Shown here one piece after another: positions 35,911 through 45,096 of a stretch of 64,000 bases of DNA. The stretch is from Agrococcus baldri (lineage in GTDB: Bacteria; Actinomycetota; Actinomycetes; Actinomycetales; Microbacteriaceae): contig BJUU01000002.1 in the NCBI GenBank assembly GCA_007988785.1, forward strand, positions 186,001-250,000, written 5' to 3'. Positions within the stretch are counted from its first letter, which is position 1. Each line of letters begins with the position of its first letter. Position numbers and translations under genes: made by a program. The notes beneath the pieces are model-generated. The model did no database searches and had not been told where the DNA came from. It saw nothing but the letters and a program-made list of their open reading frames with translations.

Positions 35911-36675
35911 GTGCTCGTGCGCGACGCGGCCAGCGGCGAGGTGCTGCTCGAGCGCTCGCCCGAGGTGCGTCTGTCGACGGCGTCGGTGCCGAAGCTGCTG
36001 CTGCTCATCGCGTGCGCGGCGGCGATCGAGGCGGGTGAGCTCGACCCGGGCGAGCTGCTCGACCGCGGCTCGGTGCCGTCGGTCGGCGACTCGGGGCTGT
36101 GGCAGCACCTCGGGCAGCAGGCGCTGTCGGTGGCGGATGCCGCGGCGCTCGTCGGCGCGGTCAGCGACAACCTCGCGACCAACGTGCTGCTCGCCCGCAT
36201 CGGGCTCGAGGCGGTGTCGCGCGAAGCCGCGAGGCTCGGCATCCGTGACGTGCACCTGCACGACGCGGTGCGCGATGCGCGCGGGCCGACGCATCCGCCG
36301 CGGCTGAGCAGTGCGTCTGCGGCGGGTCTGGTCGACATGCTGACCCGGCTCTCGGCGGGCGAGCTGGGCTCGGCGGCGGTGAGCGAGCGCGTGCTGGGCT
36401 GGATGCGGCACTCGGTCGACCTGAGCATGGTCGCTTCGGCGTTCGGGCAGGATCCGCTCGCGCACGGCGGTGACGCCCCGCAGCTCTTCGTGAAGACCGG
36501 CACCGATGCGGGCGTGCGGGCGGATGCGGGCGTGGTGCGGGCTGCAGACCGCACGCTCGTCTACGCGGCGATCGCCAACTGGCCCGCCGACGTCGACGCG
36601 ACCGGCGAGGTGCTCGCGTCGATGCGCGGGATCGGCGAACTCGTGCGCGCGGCCGTCGAGGGCGATCGCGGCTGA
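35911..36675 (+). CDS. Beta-lactamase-like serine hydrolase
   Basis: The 254-residue protein has all three class A serine-enzyme motifs: SVPK (Ser25-Lys28), SDN (in AVSDNLATN) and KTG (in FVKTGTDAG). It lacks a signal peptide, so it may act in the cytoplasm or its start may be mis-set. The GTG at 35911 leaves an unusually short N-terminus. The frame stays open upstream to a stop at 35842 with no ATG, GTG or TTG; only an ATC at 35854 follows a TAGACT box. Function could be peptide hydrolysis or esterase activity rather than resistance. Confidence 0.8.
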   Translation: MLVRDAASGEVLLERSPEVRLSTASVPKLLLLIACAAAIEAGELDPGELLDRGSVPSVGDSGLWQHLGQQALSVADAAALVGAVSDNLATNVLLARIGLEAVSREAARLGIRDVHLHDAVRDARGPTHPPRLSSASAAGLVDMLTRLSAGELGSAAVSERVLGWMRHSVDLSMVASAFGQDPLAHGGDAPQLFVKTGTDAGVRADAGVVRAADRTLVYAAIANWPADVDATGEVLASMRGIGELVRAAVEGDRG

Positions 36676-36720
36676 GCCGCGCGGCCGCTGTAGGTGACGG
36701 CCGGCGCCCGCAGACGTGAA

Positions 36721-36751
36721 ACGGGGCCGCCCCCGGTTGGGACGGCCCCGT
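36721..36751. terminator. Bidirectional hairpin between the serine hydrolase and the 63-aa ORF
   Basis: ACGGGGCCG (36721-36729) pairs perfectly with 36743-36751 around a 13-base loop. It can terminate both the plus-strand hydrolase and the minus-strand small ORF. Confidence 0.7.
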
Positions 36752-36760
36752 GCGCTGCGC

Positions 36761-36952
36761 TCATACGAGCAGCTGGCGTGCGAGCGAGTCGAGCCGGTGC
36801 TGCTCGCGCGATTCGAGGGCGTCCTCGTAGGCGCGTGCTTCGCGGCGGCGCTGGTCGTCGAGCTCGGCCCCGAGGGCCCAGCGGGCGAGCAGCTGCGATG
36901 CGCTCAGTGCAGCCCTGCGCGTGGCAGGCAGCTGATGAGTCGAATACAACAT
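36761..36952 (-). CDS. Small basic protein of 63 residues, unknown function
   Basis: It starts MLYSTHQLPATRRAALSASQ and ends SLARQLLV. It is rich in Ala, Leu and Arg and predicted to be alpha-helical, with charged heptads in EARAYEDALESREQHRLDS suggesting a coiled coil. No family is recognised. Upstream are two 12-bp palindromes at 36973-37009. Downstream is a strong hairpin. Its Shine-Dalgarno is weak. It may be a real small gene, or part of the leader transcript begun at the promoter at 37337. Confidence 0.45.
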   Translation of the reverse strand: MLYSTHQLPATRRAALSASQLLARWALGAELDDQRRREARAYEDALESREQHRLDSLARQLLV

Positions 36953-36972
36953 GGTGTTCTGCTTTCTGGCAT

Positions 36973-36984
36973 GGCGATATCGCC
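36973..36984. repeat. Perfect 12-bp palindrome GGCGATATCGCC
   Basis: It lies 21 bp upstream of the 63-residue ORF start. A sister palindrome sharing the 10-bp core GCGATATCGC lies at 36998-37009, centre-to-centre 25 bp. Probable dual operator. Confidence 0.6.
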
Positions 36985-36997
36985 CCAGCATTGGGCA

Positions 36998-37009
36998 TGC
37001 GATATCGCA
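36998..37009. repeat. Perfect 12-bp palindrome TGCGATATCGCA
   Basis: It shares the core GCGATATCGC with the palindrome at 36973-36984. A 25-bp spacing (about two and a half helical turns) would put two bound dimers on opposite faces of the DNA. Confidence 0.6.
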
Positions 37010-37233
37010 GGATGAATTGCGAGTTGATTGCGCGCTGAATAGCACCCGAAAAGAGGTGCGGATGCGCGAATTGCGACAGGCACGTCGCCAGACGACCGAA
37101 GGACGGTCGCGGTGAGCGCGCGTCGCTGATCAGCGATCGGTGATGGAGGAAGGCGCAGGGTTAGCAAGCCTGCTGTGGCCTGGCAGCTGCGGAGTCGAGA
37201 CGGCTCCGCGGCGTTCAGCCGCTGCGCTCTTCG
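37010..37233 (-). other. Structured, AT-richer leader-like region
   Basis: No convincing gene is seen. Reading on the minus strand after the micro-ORF stop, there are competing hairpins. One at 37208-37222 has a 5-bp stem (GCGGC/GCCGC). The other pairs 37189-37194 with 37204-37209 (GCGGAG/CTCCGC). They share bases and exclude each other. Further hairpins are at 37123-37136 (14-bp palindrome TCGCTGATCAGCGA) and 37093-37109. The layout resembles an attenuator, but no target gene is evident other than the 63-residue ORF. Confidence 0.45.
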
Positions 37234-37290
37234 CTAGCAGACCCCGCCCGCAAGAAGGGCTCCAGCAGAGTGGATGATCGTGTCAAACAT
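37234..37290 (-). CDS. 18-codon micro-ORF (MFDTIIHSAGALLAGGVC), possible leader peptide
   Basis: The 57-base ORF encodes an 18-residue peptide with a hydrophobic, Gly-rich second half and a C-terminal cysteine. A perfect AAAGGAGG (37299-37306) lies eight bases upstream of the ATG, the strongest ribosome site seen in the window, and a sigma-70-like promoter lies at 37337-37364. Downstream are mutually exclusive hairpins. It could be a regulatory leader peptide, a secreted or modified peptide, or a small membrane peptide. Its presence is sequence-based; function is unknown. Confidence 0.6.
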   Translation of the reverse strand: MFDTIIHSAGALLAGGVC

Positions 37291-37336
37291 CGCGAGCTCC
37301 TCCTTTCTCGTAGGCGTGGAAGTTCACGACCACGAA

Positions 37337-37364
37337 GATATAACGCGGGCACGGCGAATTGCAA
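37337..37364 (-). promoter_or_regulatory. Promoter of the 18-codon micro-ORF
   Basis: On the minus strand TTGCAA (37359-37364) and TATATC (37337-37342) are separated by 16 bp. The region is AT-richer than its surroundings. Transcription would start near 37330, leaving a 40-base leader. Confidence 0.55.
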
Positions 37365-37476
37365 GCGGATTCACAAACTTTTTCGACGCGTTTCCGAATG
37401 GGCTCATTTGTACCCCGATCGGACAGCCTGTGGAGAGCGCCGGTGCGCTCCCGGCACGGTCGCGTAACCTGCCCGC

Positions 37477-37998
37477 ATGCTCGGTCGGATCACGTCTGGT
37501 GTCGCGCTCGCTTCGATGGCGGCGCTGGTGCTCGTCGGATGCACGCCTGGGCCGAGCGAGGAAGAAGTGGTCGGAGAGGCACGCGCGACCTGGGAACAGT
37601 TCCTCGGCCACCTGAATGAGTACAGCGCCAACCCAGCTGACGCGGACAGGCAACAGCTCATGCGCGTCGCCGACCCTGCCGTGGCCGACGGCCAGATGCA
37701 GGTCTTCGAGCAAGCATCGGCGGCGGGCATCCACGCGGAGGGTGCTCGGGTTACGGCTGATTTCACCGCCGTTCAATCGAACGACAATGCCCAGACGGTT
37801 TCGGCGGTTGTGTGCGTCGACGTATCCGGCGAGCGGGTGATAGCTGCCGACGGCACTGACGTCACCGATGCCGATCGACCGTCGCAGGTCGCGTACGAGC
37901 TGATGTTTGACCGCGCGGATAGCGAGGACGACTCGAACCTCTTGATCACGTCCTACGCGGAAGCCACCGATGCACTGGCTGAGAACCCATGCTCTTGA
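37477..37998 (+). CDS. Putative lipoprotein
   Basis: The 173-residue protein has a signal peptide and lipobox LVGC (Cys22), followed by an acidic domain (EEEVVGEARATWEQFLGHLNEY) and a small alpha/beta region with conserved-looking SAVVCVDVSGERVIAADG. It is anchored on the outer face of the membrane. The next gene overlaps its 3' end by 10 bases, so the two form a pair common in related genomes. The role is unknown. Confidence 0.75.
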   Translation: MLGRITSGVALASMAALVLVGCTPGPSEEEVVGEARATWEQFLGHLNEYSANPADADRQQLMRVADPAVADGQMQVFEQASAAGIHAEGARVTADFTAVQSNDNAQTVSAVVCVDVSGERVIAADGTDVTDADRPSQVAYELMFDRADSEDDSNLLITSYAEATDALAENPCS

Positions 37999-38831
37999 TC
38001 GCCACAGTGATGGTGGGCATATCGCTGATGCCCATGATCGGAGCTGACGACTCAGACGCGCCGCCGCCGGCATTCTTCACAAGCGACGAACTGGTCGCGG
38101 GTGCGGCGCGCAACTCGAGCGGGAACGATGGCGGCCATGATTCTGGCGCTCCCGAAGCTGGCACCCGCGCTTCAACGGGCCCCACCGGCCACTACACCCC
38201 GCCCGCCGCGACCCCCAACCGCCTCGCGCCGTGCCAGACGTGGATCGACGCTGCAGCGCTCTGCTTCCGCACCTCGATCGACGAGCTCGGCGACGCGCCC
38301 GCAGATCCCGCGGAGCCCGCCGCCGCGGCGCCTGCTGAGCCTGAAGCGCGCCCCATCACGATGAGCGACATCGAGCGGTTCACGCCGATCGTCGGCGAGC
38401 TTGTGGTCGAGCCCGAGGGGTGGGGCGTCGTCGGCACGCCGACCAACTTCTACGCGACCGCCGAGTCGCACACGATGGACGGCGAGCTGTTCGACACCGC
38501 GATCCAGGTGCGCTGGACGCCCAGCGGCTACCGCTTCGACTACGGCGATGGCACGGTCGAGGAGTCCGAGACGTCCGGCTCCGCCTGGCGCGGCACCGAA
38601 GACTCGTGGACCGAGACGGCCACGAGCCACACGTACGATTCCCGCGATGACGTCACCGCATCCGTCACCGTCGTCTTCACGGCAGAGGTCAACGCCGGCG
38701 GCGGCTGGTTCGCGGTGCCCGGCACCCTACCCGTCGAGGCGCCGGGCGTGAGCGTCAAGGTCTTCGAGGTCGACACCGTGCTGACGAACGGCGACTGCAT
38801 GGCCAACCCCAACGCTGCAGGCTGCGGCTGA
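37989..38831 (+). CDS. Secreted protein with PKD-like C-terminal region
   Basis: The 280-residue protein has a short hydrophobic N-terminus (about 1-18), a Pro/Ala-rich linker (about 100-120) and a C-terminal PKD-like beta-sandwich. The WTPSGYRFDYGDGTVEE segment carries the YxDGT motif of PKD folds, followed by DSRDDVTASVTVVF. Cysteines at CQTWIDAAALC and CMANPNAAGC may form disulfides. It overlaps the lipoprotein gene and is probably exported with it. It may be a surface interaction protein. Confidence 0.72.
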   Translation: MLLIATVMVGISLMPMIGADDSDAPPPAFFTSDELVAGAARNSSGNDGGHDSGAPEAGTRASTGPTGHYTPPAATPNRLAPCQTWIDAAALCFRTSIDELGDAPADPAEPAAAAPAEPEARPITMSDIERFTPIVGELVVEPEGWGVVGTPTNFYATAESHTMDGELFDTAIQVRWTPSGYRFDYGDGTVEESETSGSAWRGTEDSWTETATSHTYDSRDDVTASVTVVFTAEVNAGGGWFAVPGTLPVEAPGVSVKVFEVDTVLTNGDCMANPNAAGCG

Positions 38832-43395: not shown

Positions 43396-45096
43396 ATGTC
43401 GGTGGTCGAGCGGGCAGCGATGGCGGTCGAAGCCGCCCGCGCCGCCTTCGCCGACGCCGGCGAGCTCGCCGCCGCGACCCAGCAGGACGTCGTCGACCTG
43501 CTCGCGATGAGCGCTGAGCTCGGCCGCATCGCCGACGCCCAGCGGGTGCGGCTCGCGGGCGCCGTCGCCGAGCGCTCTCGCGTGGCGGACGATTCGTCGA
43601 TCTGCCGCGTGCTCGGCGCGCGGAGCGCCAACGCCGCGCTCGCATCCGCCTTCGGCATCCGCGGCAGCGACGCCGCCTCGCTGCTGTCGATGGCCGCCGC
43701 GACGAGCGCCGCGGTGGGCGTCAGCGGGCAGGACATCCCCGTCCCCTACCCGCGCCTCGCAGCCGCGCTCGACGACGGCGAGCTCTCGCTCGCGCAGGCT
43801 CGCGCCATCGTCACCACGCTCGCCCCCGCCGTGCCGAACGCCGATCTCGAGCAGCTCGCCTGGGCGGAGGGCCTGCTCGTCGATGCGGCGACCGCGCCCG
43901 AGGCGCCGCTCACCCCCGAGCTGCTCGTGGTGCAGGCCCGCGCCTATGCTGCCGTGCTCGACCCCGACGGCGTGCTGCCGAACGCCGAGCGGCAGCAGGC
44001 GGAGCGCGAGTTCTCGCTGCGCGAGCTGGCCAACGGCAGCTTCCTCGGCAAGGGCACCTTCACGCCCGAGGGCGGCTCCGCGCTGAAGGCGGTGCTGGAT
44101 GCCAACACCGCCCCGCGCGTGCGCGTGCGGTTCACCGACGACGAGTGCGAGGGCGCAGCCGAGCCCGAGATCCCCGCCGACGACCGCACCACCAAGCAGA
44201 AGCGGCACGACGCGCTCGTCGCGATGGCAGAGGCATACGCCGCCTCCGGCGCGGGCTCGGTGGCGGGCGGCGAGGTGCCGCGGCTCGTGTTGACCGGCAC
44301 CATCGAGGCCTTCGACGCCTACGTGCGCGGCATCGAGCACCCCGACCGTGCGCTCACCGTCGAGCACACCGGCAGCATCGTGCCGATCGAGACCGCCGAT
44401 CGGCTGCTCTGCGACGGCGTCGTGCAGCGCGCCGTGCTCGACGCCGAAGGCCACGTGCTCGACCTGGGTCGTGAGCAGCGCCTCTTCAGCGCTGCACAGC
44501 GCCGGGCCCTCGCCCTGCAGTACGGCGGATGCGCGACACCCGGCTGCGGGTTCCCCGTCGCCTGGACCGAAGCCCACCACGTCGTGTGGTGGTCGCGCGG
44601 CGGCCGGACCGACACGAAGTACGGGATCCTGCTCTGCAAGCACTGCCACTCGGAGGTGCACGCCGGGCGGCTGCTGATCGTCGGCACTCCCGGCCACTGG
44701 CGGGTCGTTCCGCAGCTGCGGCCGAACGACCGCTACGCCCGGGTCCACCGCACGGGCCGCCCGCTGCAGACCTCCACGCGCCCCCGCACTGCGGGCTCGC
44801 ACGCGCCGCCGCCGCTGGCCGTGAAGCTTCCCGACGCCGTGGTGCCGCCGGTCGAGCCAGCGATGCCGGTCGAGCCAGCGATCCCGGTCGAGCCAGCGAT
44901 GCCGGTCCAGCCAGTGATGCCGGCCGCGACCACGCGATTCGGCGGGGCGTTCGCGTCGCCCGCCGCGCATCGCGCGGCCGGGCCGGTCGAGGCGCAGCTG
45001 CGACGACGGCTGCGCACCAGCCGACGGTCGCGGGCGAGGCCGTGCCCGCCCGCCTTCGACCGGCCGCCGACGCCGCAGCTCGTGCTGCGCACCTGA
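43396..45096 (+). CDS. DUF222/HNH endonuclease
   Basis: The 566-residue protein has a DUF222 N-terminal region (about 1-350, helical) and an HNH nuclease module near 375-425 with AHHVVWWSRGG and CKHCHSEVH. Four Cys in CATPGC and CKHC probably bind a structural zinc. The C-terminus has a PV-EPAMP repeat encoded by a 4 x 18-bp tandem array. DUF222/HNH genes are abundant in actinobacteria and sometimes mobile-like. GAGGAGG lies upstream of the ATG. No intein or phage context is present. Confidence 0.9.
   Translation: MSVVERAAMAVEAARAAFADAGELAAATQQDVVDLLAMSAELGRIADAQRVRLAGAVAERSRVADDSSICRVLGARSANAALASAFGIRGSDAASLLSMAAATSAAVGVSGQDIPVPYPRLAAALDDGELSLAQARAIVTTLAPAVPNADLEQLAWAEGLLVDAATAPEAPLTPELLVVQARAYAAVLDPDGVLPNAERQQAEREFSLRELANGSFLGKGTFTPEGGSALKAVLDANTAPRVRVRFTDDECEGAAEPEIPADDRTTKQKRHDALVAMAEAYAASGAGSVAGGEVPRLVLTGTIEAFDAYVRGIEHPDRALTVEHTGSIVPIETADRLLCDGVVQRAVLDAEGHVLDLGREQRLFSAAQRRALALQYGGCATPGCGFPVAWTEAHHVVWWSRGGRTDTKYGILLCKHCHSEVHAGRLLIVGTPGHWRVVPQLRPNDRYARVHRTGRPLQTSTRPRTAGSHAPPPLAVKLPDAVVPPVEPAMPVEPAIPVEPAMPVQPVMPAATTRFGGAFASPAAHRAAGPVEAQLRRRLRTSRRSRARPCPPAFDRPPTPQLVLRT
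44848..44919 (+). repeat. Four tandem 18-bp repeats in the HNH gene
   Basis: CCGGTCGAGCCAGCGATG repeats at 44848, 44866, 44884 and 44902; unit 2 has one change and unit 4 has two. It encodes PVEPAM-like hexapeptides in a Pro-rich linker. The number of units could vary by slippage. Confidence 0.9.

Follow-up and report, generated by a model that had tools for sequence, protein, structure and literature searches.

A conserved micro-ORF ahead of a small Agrococcus gene, a probable leader ORF whose codons can pair with its own ribosome site

The window (the whole stretch of 64,000 nucleotides of Agrococcus DNA analysed here) contains an 18-codon micro-ORF with an outstanding ribosome site. The question raised by this locus is whether the micro-ORF encodes a working peptide, or whether it is translated, or folded, for the sake of a gene downstream. 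Based on sequence comparison across the genus, we put at roughly 70% the probability that the micro-ORF is a cis-acting translated leader ORF controlling a downstream gene, whose small product is predicted to be helical. It probably serves as a regulatory switch for that gene and not to make a working peptide.

The micro-ORF, the small gene and their occurrence in Agrococcus

The micro-ORF (37234..37290, minus strand) comprises 18 codons and a TAG, with its ATG at 37290-37288 and the stop ending at 37234, and its product would be MFDTIIHSAGALLAGGVC. The Shine-Dalgarno sequence AAAGGAGG (37299..37306, minus strand) is located 8 nt 5' of the ATG. When both strands of the 64 kb were counted this was the sole copy, compared to a mean of 0.2 expected from 200 Markov-1 simulations; the same number of simulations gave an expectation of 0.01 for AAAGGAGG followed by an ATG at 4-10 nt and at least 17 codons. 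The first-pass annotation, which had named no strand and had singled out the micro-ORF for its ribosome site, was therefore confirmed on this point. The sigma-70-like promoter that it described was upheld in part: TTGCAA and TATATC are present with 16 nt between them (37337..37364, minus strand, TTGCAA from 37364 and TATATC to 37337), and by eye the -35 CTTGC was retained in 17/20 aligned relatives and the -10 TATA[CT]CT in 14/20, but when 36650-37480 was scanned with a strict sigma-70 consensus, zero sites were returned and this pair was not picked up.

Downstream of an untranslated leader, 281 nt after the micro-ORF stop, lies the gene for a 63-aa protein (36761..36952, minus strand), preceded by a weak Shine-Dalgarno sequence, AGAAAG (36967-36962), and followed by a GC-rich hairpin (36721..36751, minus strand), a likely terminator that was seen in the sequence and missed by a T-run scan. 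The 63-aa protein had no match in Pfam and a close relative of it had none in NCBIfam or PHROGs; its predicted structure is a single long helix (mean pLDDT 85, pTM 0.46). The convergent downstream neighbour matched Pfam Beta-lactamase2, and the divergent upstream neighbour, which had no Pfam match, looks like a lipoprotein judged by its N-terminus. Many relatives carry, next to the element, DNA that matches this neighbour and the gene following it (37477-38831), with far lower similarity for the lipoprotein-like gene than for the other.

The micro-ORF, leader and small gene were found in the same order in 23 of the 24 Agrococcus genomes searched. Across these 23 genomes the leader headed by the micro-ORF measures 205-364 nt and is followed by a gene for a protein of 63-68 aa. 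This constant position ahead of the same small gene supports a leader role, one of those suggested in the first-pass annotation. Among 60 genomes searched, the small protein was present in 20, every one of the window's genus, and the leader DNA was found in 17. Two covariance models were used, R1, which holds the sequence and the hairpin over the ribosome site (the lock hairpin, below) and was built from 20 micro-ORF regions, and R2, built from 22 sequences. R1 matched genomes G009 and G021 (E 2.2e-4) and R2 matched G023 (E 2.7e-5), all three missed by the protein and DNA searches. Each of these copies has a 17-codon ORF (MFMTTTCTGPALVSGIR twice; MFMTASCIGPALVSGTH) and, 382-398 nt from the micro-ORF ATG, a 68-aa ORF starting MSTISQPLRLAA. 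An apparent absence from these three genomes, and the co-loss argument built on it, was dropped once R1 and R2 had revealed the divergent copies. Two further weak matches in these genomes, L093 and L099, sit within seemingly ordinary genes. The single Agrococcus miss was G010, a genome 65% complete, in which searches with the protein, the DNA and the R1 and R2 models gave no convincing match.

Outside Agrococcus the element was not recognised in searches with filters, each run on a sample of the family numbering 299 to 398 genomes, nor among those weak matches that were inspected. A protein profile (A1) gave 4 extra-genus matches in 398 family genomes (E 9.8e-4 to 3.7e-3), which is about chance level, and the 2 of the 4 that were inspected had no such gene. 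A wider profile (A8) gave 6 in 349 genomes, the best at E 2.8e-4, with only L058 among them inspected. The pattern of Shine-Dalgarno sequence and start was found in 6 of 299 genomes, all of them Agrococcus. With R1 and an E limit of 0.1, matches turned up in 18 extra-genus genomes among 398, where chance would give about 40; the arrangement was absent from the 6 of the 18 inspected (L092, L094-L097 and L111), the last of which carries an 11-codon ORF ahead of a gene resembling an alpha/beta hydrolase. The three extra-genus matches of R2 in 349 genomes (E 0.0024-0.009) were all inspected and lacked the arrangement, as did L110 and L112 from an R2 search of 10 genomes. If confirmed, the leader would offer a handle on an orphan protein carried by 23 of 24 genomes in one genus.

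Conservation of the reading frame and of the peptide

We compared the 23 copies for signs of translation and of a conserved product. In all 23, the position of the ORF start varies by at most 3 nt and that of its stop by at most one codon. The start is ATG in 22; the exception, L014, has a GTG 3 nt before the position and an ATG 3 nt after it, both in frame. The stop is TAG in 21, TAA in one (one codon early) and TGA in one, and the peptides are 17-21 aa long. By eye, insertions and deletions between homologous start and stop were multiples of three (-3, +3 and +9 nt), whereas indels of 1-2 nt were common in the flanks, which argues that the frame is kept. Since start, frame and stop position are all maintained, translation itself looks selected.

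The same did not hold for the amino acids. The pN/pS ratio was determined in nine pairs chosen for little overlap on the tree, which are not strictly independent, and was 1.05 for the micro-ORF (95% 0.75-1.54; 153 codon pairs) compared to 0.51 for the small downstream gene (0.43-0.60; 561 codon pairs). With eight pairs, the ratio was 0.98 for the micro-ORF, 0.89 for its C-terminal half, and 1.07 and 1.39 when the two alternative frames were read. Changes counted on the tree numbered 46/41/52 at the three codon positions, so that a coding signal for the whole ORF was not clear; in the C-terminal half alone, third-position changes were more numerous. The synonymous-substitution bias across relatives, which the first-pass annotation had proposed to look for, was thus absent, and this speaks against a functional peptide; the signalling role that it had entertained found no support. 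Neither did its suggestion of a modified C-terminal cysteine, because the last residue of the 23 peptides is Ser in 8, Arg in 8, Cys in only 4, His in 2 and Ala in 1. The micro-ORF therefore looks, from these comparisons, like one whose translation is under selection while its amino acids drift.

We weighed these data against the reading in which the peptide of 17-21 aa is itself a functional product (a signal, a regulator or a modified peptide) of a two-gene small-protein operon. The strong ribosome site and the conserved start and stop would be expected of such a gene, and a C-terminal half resembling ALLPGGV, the same half in which third positions change more, recurs in most of the 23 peptides. 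However, the pN/pS of the micro-ORF, even in that half, is above that of the neighbouring gene, the cysteine is seldom last, and the conserved half is largely the stretch that can pair with the ribosome site. By eye, L091 and L104 swap amino acids in the codons of the hairpin loop and are identical in the paired stretch. Taken with these points, a functional peptide is unlikely. Two kinds of leader in which the peptide matters were considered as well. The locus did not resemble an amino-acid attenuator: in the 23 peptides the recurrent amino-acid runs go no further than Leu-Leu, the gene downstream belongs to no known family, and the window's leader showed no terminator-like site. For an arrest peptide of the ermCL or tnaC type, no synonymous bias was seen over the ORF, but the pairing of the C-terminal half would obscure a short stalling motif there.

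RNA pairing over the ribosome site and in the leader

The ribosome site of the micro-ORF can be closed by a hairpin of 14 pairs, which we call the lock. Its 5' arm, AAGGAGG-A-GCUCGCG (37291..37305, minus strand), covers the ribosome site up to the start, and its 3' arm (37252..37267, minus strand) takes in the third position of micro-ORF codon 8 and the whole of codons 9-13, reading CGC-UG-GAGCCCUUCUU in many relatives. The N-terminal codons form the variable hairpin loop and the codons after them the arm. Among 20 sequences, 92.5% of 279 cells were paired, with 10 to 14 of the 14 pairs formed in each sequence, compared to 47-58% when the arms were slid as a control. Eight double-change cells were counted at 4 pairs, a number reached in 0 of 500 shuffles, and the covariation score was 0.170 versus 0.123 +/- 0.008 in shuffles. 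The double changes were G-C to A-U in L016-L018 and C-G to U-A in L014, and further G-C to A-U in L005, L017 and L018 and A-U to G-C in L019; as some of the carriers are sisters, they represent about five separate events, judged from the tree. The count of double-change cells rose to 9 once L091 and L098 were added, in an alignment fitted to the model. The weak points of the lock are its outermost pair, broken in 7/20 sequences, and an inner pair, broken in 5/20.

Folding of full leaders gave the ribosome site of the micro-ORF a mean probability of being unpaired of 0.14-0.39. The lock was not more stable than dinucleotide shuffles in the 12 sequences compared (z -1.12 to +1.90), which counts against the leader ORF reading. 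The 72-nt piece of the window folds another way, and its full leader does show the lock helix. The ribosome site can also pair with the 5' UTR sequence CGTGAACTTCC (37318..37328, minus strand) in an alternative helix I, for which 90.4% of 198 cells were paired in 20 sequences and covariation was weak; by eye, this helix was not formed in L016-L018. Covariation was slight for a hairpin III in the C-terminal half of the micro-ORF.

Beyond the micro-ORF, the untranslated leader (36953..37233, minus strand) holds a branched domain (37153..37227, minus strand) that begins 6 nt after the micro-ORF stop. Its stem P1 (37227-37223 with 37157-37153) encloses P2, P3 (37208-37190) and P4 (37181-37166), and a further stem-loop, P5 (36974..37008, minus strand), lies immediately 5' of the ribosome site of the small gene. 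For P1-P5 in 15 sequences, 93.3% of cells were paired, compared to 31-44% in slid controls, and 25 double-change cells were counted, compared to 8.7 +/- 2.3 in shuffles; the structure was derived from the alignment on which it was then tested, which favours it. All the double changes were in P1-P4, with 18 of the 25 in P3; P5 was paired in 96.7% of cells with zero double changes. The branched domain was not seen in L016-L018, a further point against that reading; in these three the sequence of P5 differs and, by eye, pairs again. No Rfam family reached its gathering score in the window, and none matched up to E 1 in 36680-37420, the leader region, in which no known aptamer was thus found.

These structures raise the alternative that the locus is a folded RNA (a thermometer, a ligand switch or a small RNA) in which the ORF is incidental or a mere output. 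The lock and the branched domain both covary, and the ordinary stability of the lock is no objection, since switches can work without being exceptionally stable. We nevertheless regard this alternative as improbable, given that the start and stop of the ORF stay in place in 23/23 genomes, that the length of the hairpin loop changes in multiples of three, and that Rfam offers no match. The smallest type I toxins have a size range that includes the micro-ORF peptide, and the hiding of the ribosome site in predicted folds would fit such a toxin, but the micro-ORF peptides seem no more than mildly hydrophobic and are free to drift, and they are tied in 23/23 to a downstream gene under purifying selection, which makes this reading very improbable.

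A micro-ORF kept for its translation and its RNA pairing, with a peptide that drifts, would be a warning for small-protein catalogues that equate conservation with peptide function. If confirmed, it would also add an actinobacterial leader family that has no Rfam match.

The proposed mechanism and its likeness to known leaders

Under the leader ORF reading, the 14-bp lock, with codons 8-13 as its 3' arm, could shut the ribosome site and start of the micro-ORF, and the entry of a ribosome into the micro-ORF and its completion would decide how the leader folds. A ribosome is quoted as covering about 12 nt downstream of the translated codon (PMC4833913), and on this footprint one standing on the stop codon would reach into the 5' arm of P1 and cover some or all of it. 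Owing to the C-rich stretch further on, Rho may terminate transcription before the small gene is reached. What would count in this scheme is translating the ORF, and the peptide would not matter. We infer that the small gene is gated, on or off, by whether the micro-ORF is translated.

The composition of the leader is suggestive, though only that, of Rho-dependent attenuation. The C/G ratio was 1.41 in the window's leader and 1.24-1.70 in 23/23 leaders, compared to 1.01 +/- 0.16 in random 281-nt stretches of the window, the one background against which the C excess was measured; 1.5% of such stretches had a C/G as high as the window's leader, and 4.6% matched its best 78 nt. A rho gene scored over the cut-off in the window's genome. 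A point against the leader ORF reading is that a T-run scan found no terminator-like site in the region. The Rho-dependent version of the leader ORF reading is held tentatively, at somewhat less than even odds. To our knowledge, Rho-linked leader ORFs in Actinobacteria have been studied mostly in mycobacteria.

The toiL uORF of topAI-yjhQP in E. coli, as described in PMC12121999, hides the site at which ribosomes would enter the next gene and is linked to Rho termination. The Agrococcus element resembles it in having a short leader ORF upstream of a gene, a hairpin that masks a ribosome site and, as proposed here, a link to Rho with the position of the ribosome rather than the peptide as the signal (PMC12121999). 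It differs in that the codons of the micro-ORF can mask their own ribosome site, whereas toiL is described as masking that of the downstream gene (PMC12121999). When the stop region was blocked in silico in 20 leaders, the openness of the small gene's ribosome site went up in 10, down in 7 and was unchanged in 3, so that, unlike toiL, no consistent unmasking of the downstream site was seen, and a toiL-like direct opening of that site was left unsupported.

Closer to Agrococcus, the metE and ppe2 leaders of M. tuberculosis are reported to carry translated uORFs (PMC11260477), and the peptide of uORF2 in the pe20 Mbox is reported as conserved (PMC12810186). As far as these reports describe them, the three leaders share with ours an actinobacterial leader ORF, a ribosome site that can be masked and a genus-specific uORF; Rho termination is shown or proposed for them and proposed for the Agrococcus leader (PMC11260477, PMC12810186). 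Unlike the M. tuberculosis leaders, the Agrococcus leader has no known aptamer by Rfam, and unlike that of pe20 Mbox uORF2, its peptide is not conserved (PMC12810186). The Corynebacterium ilvB-II uORF is described as encoding a peptide enriched in amino acids of the operon's pathway (PMC10272879). There too a conserved RNA motif turned out to carry a uORF and attenuation of transcription was proposed (PMC10272879). In Agrococcus, by contrast, the controlled gene would be an orphan, and Leu-Leu is the longest amino-acid run to recur. The element was absent from the top-ranked literature on small proteins, leader peptides and uORFs in Agrococcus and Microbacteriaceae, by title and the start of the abstract, and our literature search returned no leader peptide with a coding sequence that hides the ribosome site from which it is translated.

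The leader ORF reading may be taken one step further. Selection on codons 8-13 might act on their pairing, which shuts the ribosome site of the ORF they belong to, and not on their amino acids. The ORF would then sense how easily initiation occurs and drive a structured attenuator ahead of the gene for the helical protein, an orphan specific to the genus. We consider this self-locking possible, with the odds tilted against it. If true, it would define an undescribed regulatory RNA family in which a coding sequence is kept by pairing and the peptide is neutral.

Several features of the region were observed besides. P5 is made up of two near-identical palindromes, TGCGATATCGCA and GGCGATATCGCC (37009-36973), which as DNA could be an operator for a dimeric regulator. 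In the leaders of the divergent species (L091, L098 and L104), another palindrome, GCATTCGCGAATGC, occurs twice before the small gene, roughly at the place that P5 holds in the others. Many of the aligned leaders contain altered versions of the block GCAATTCGCGCATCCGCA (37074-37057), part of which is present twice in L002 and L003. Elsewhere in the window, the ORF at 43396-45096, presumably encoding a protein that resembles DUF222/HNH-endonuclease (13E12-type) proteins, carries PVEPAMPVEPAIP-like repeats towards its C-terminus.
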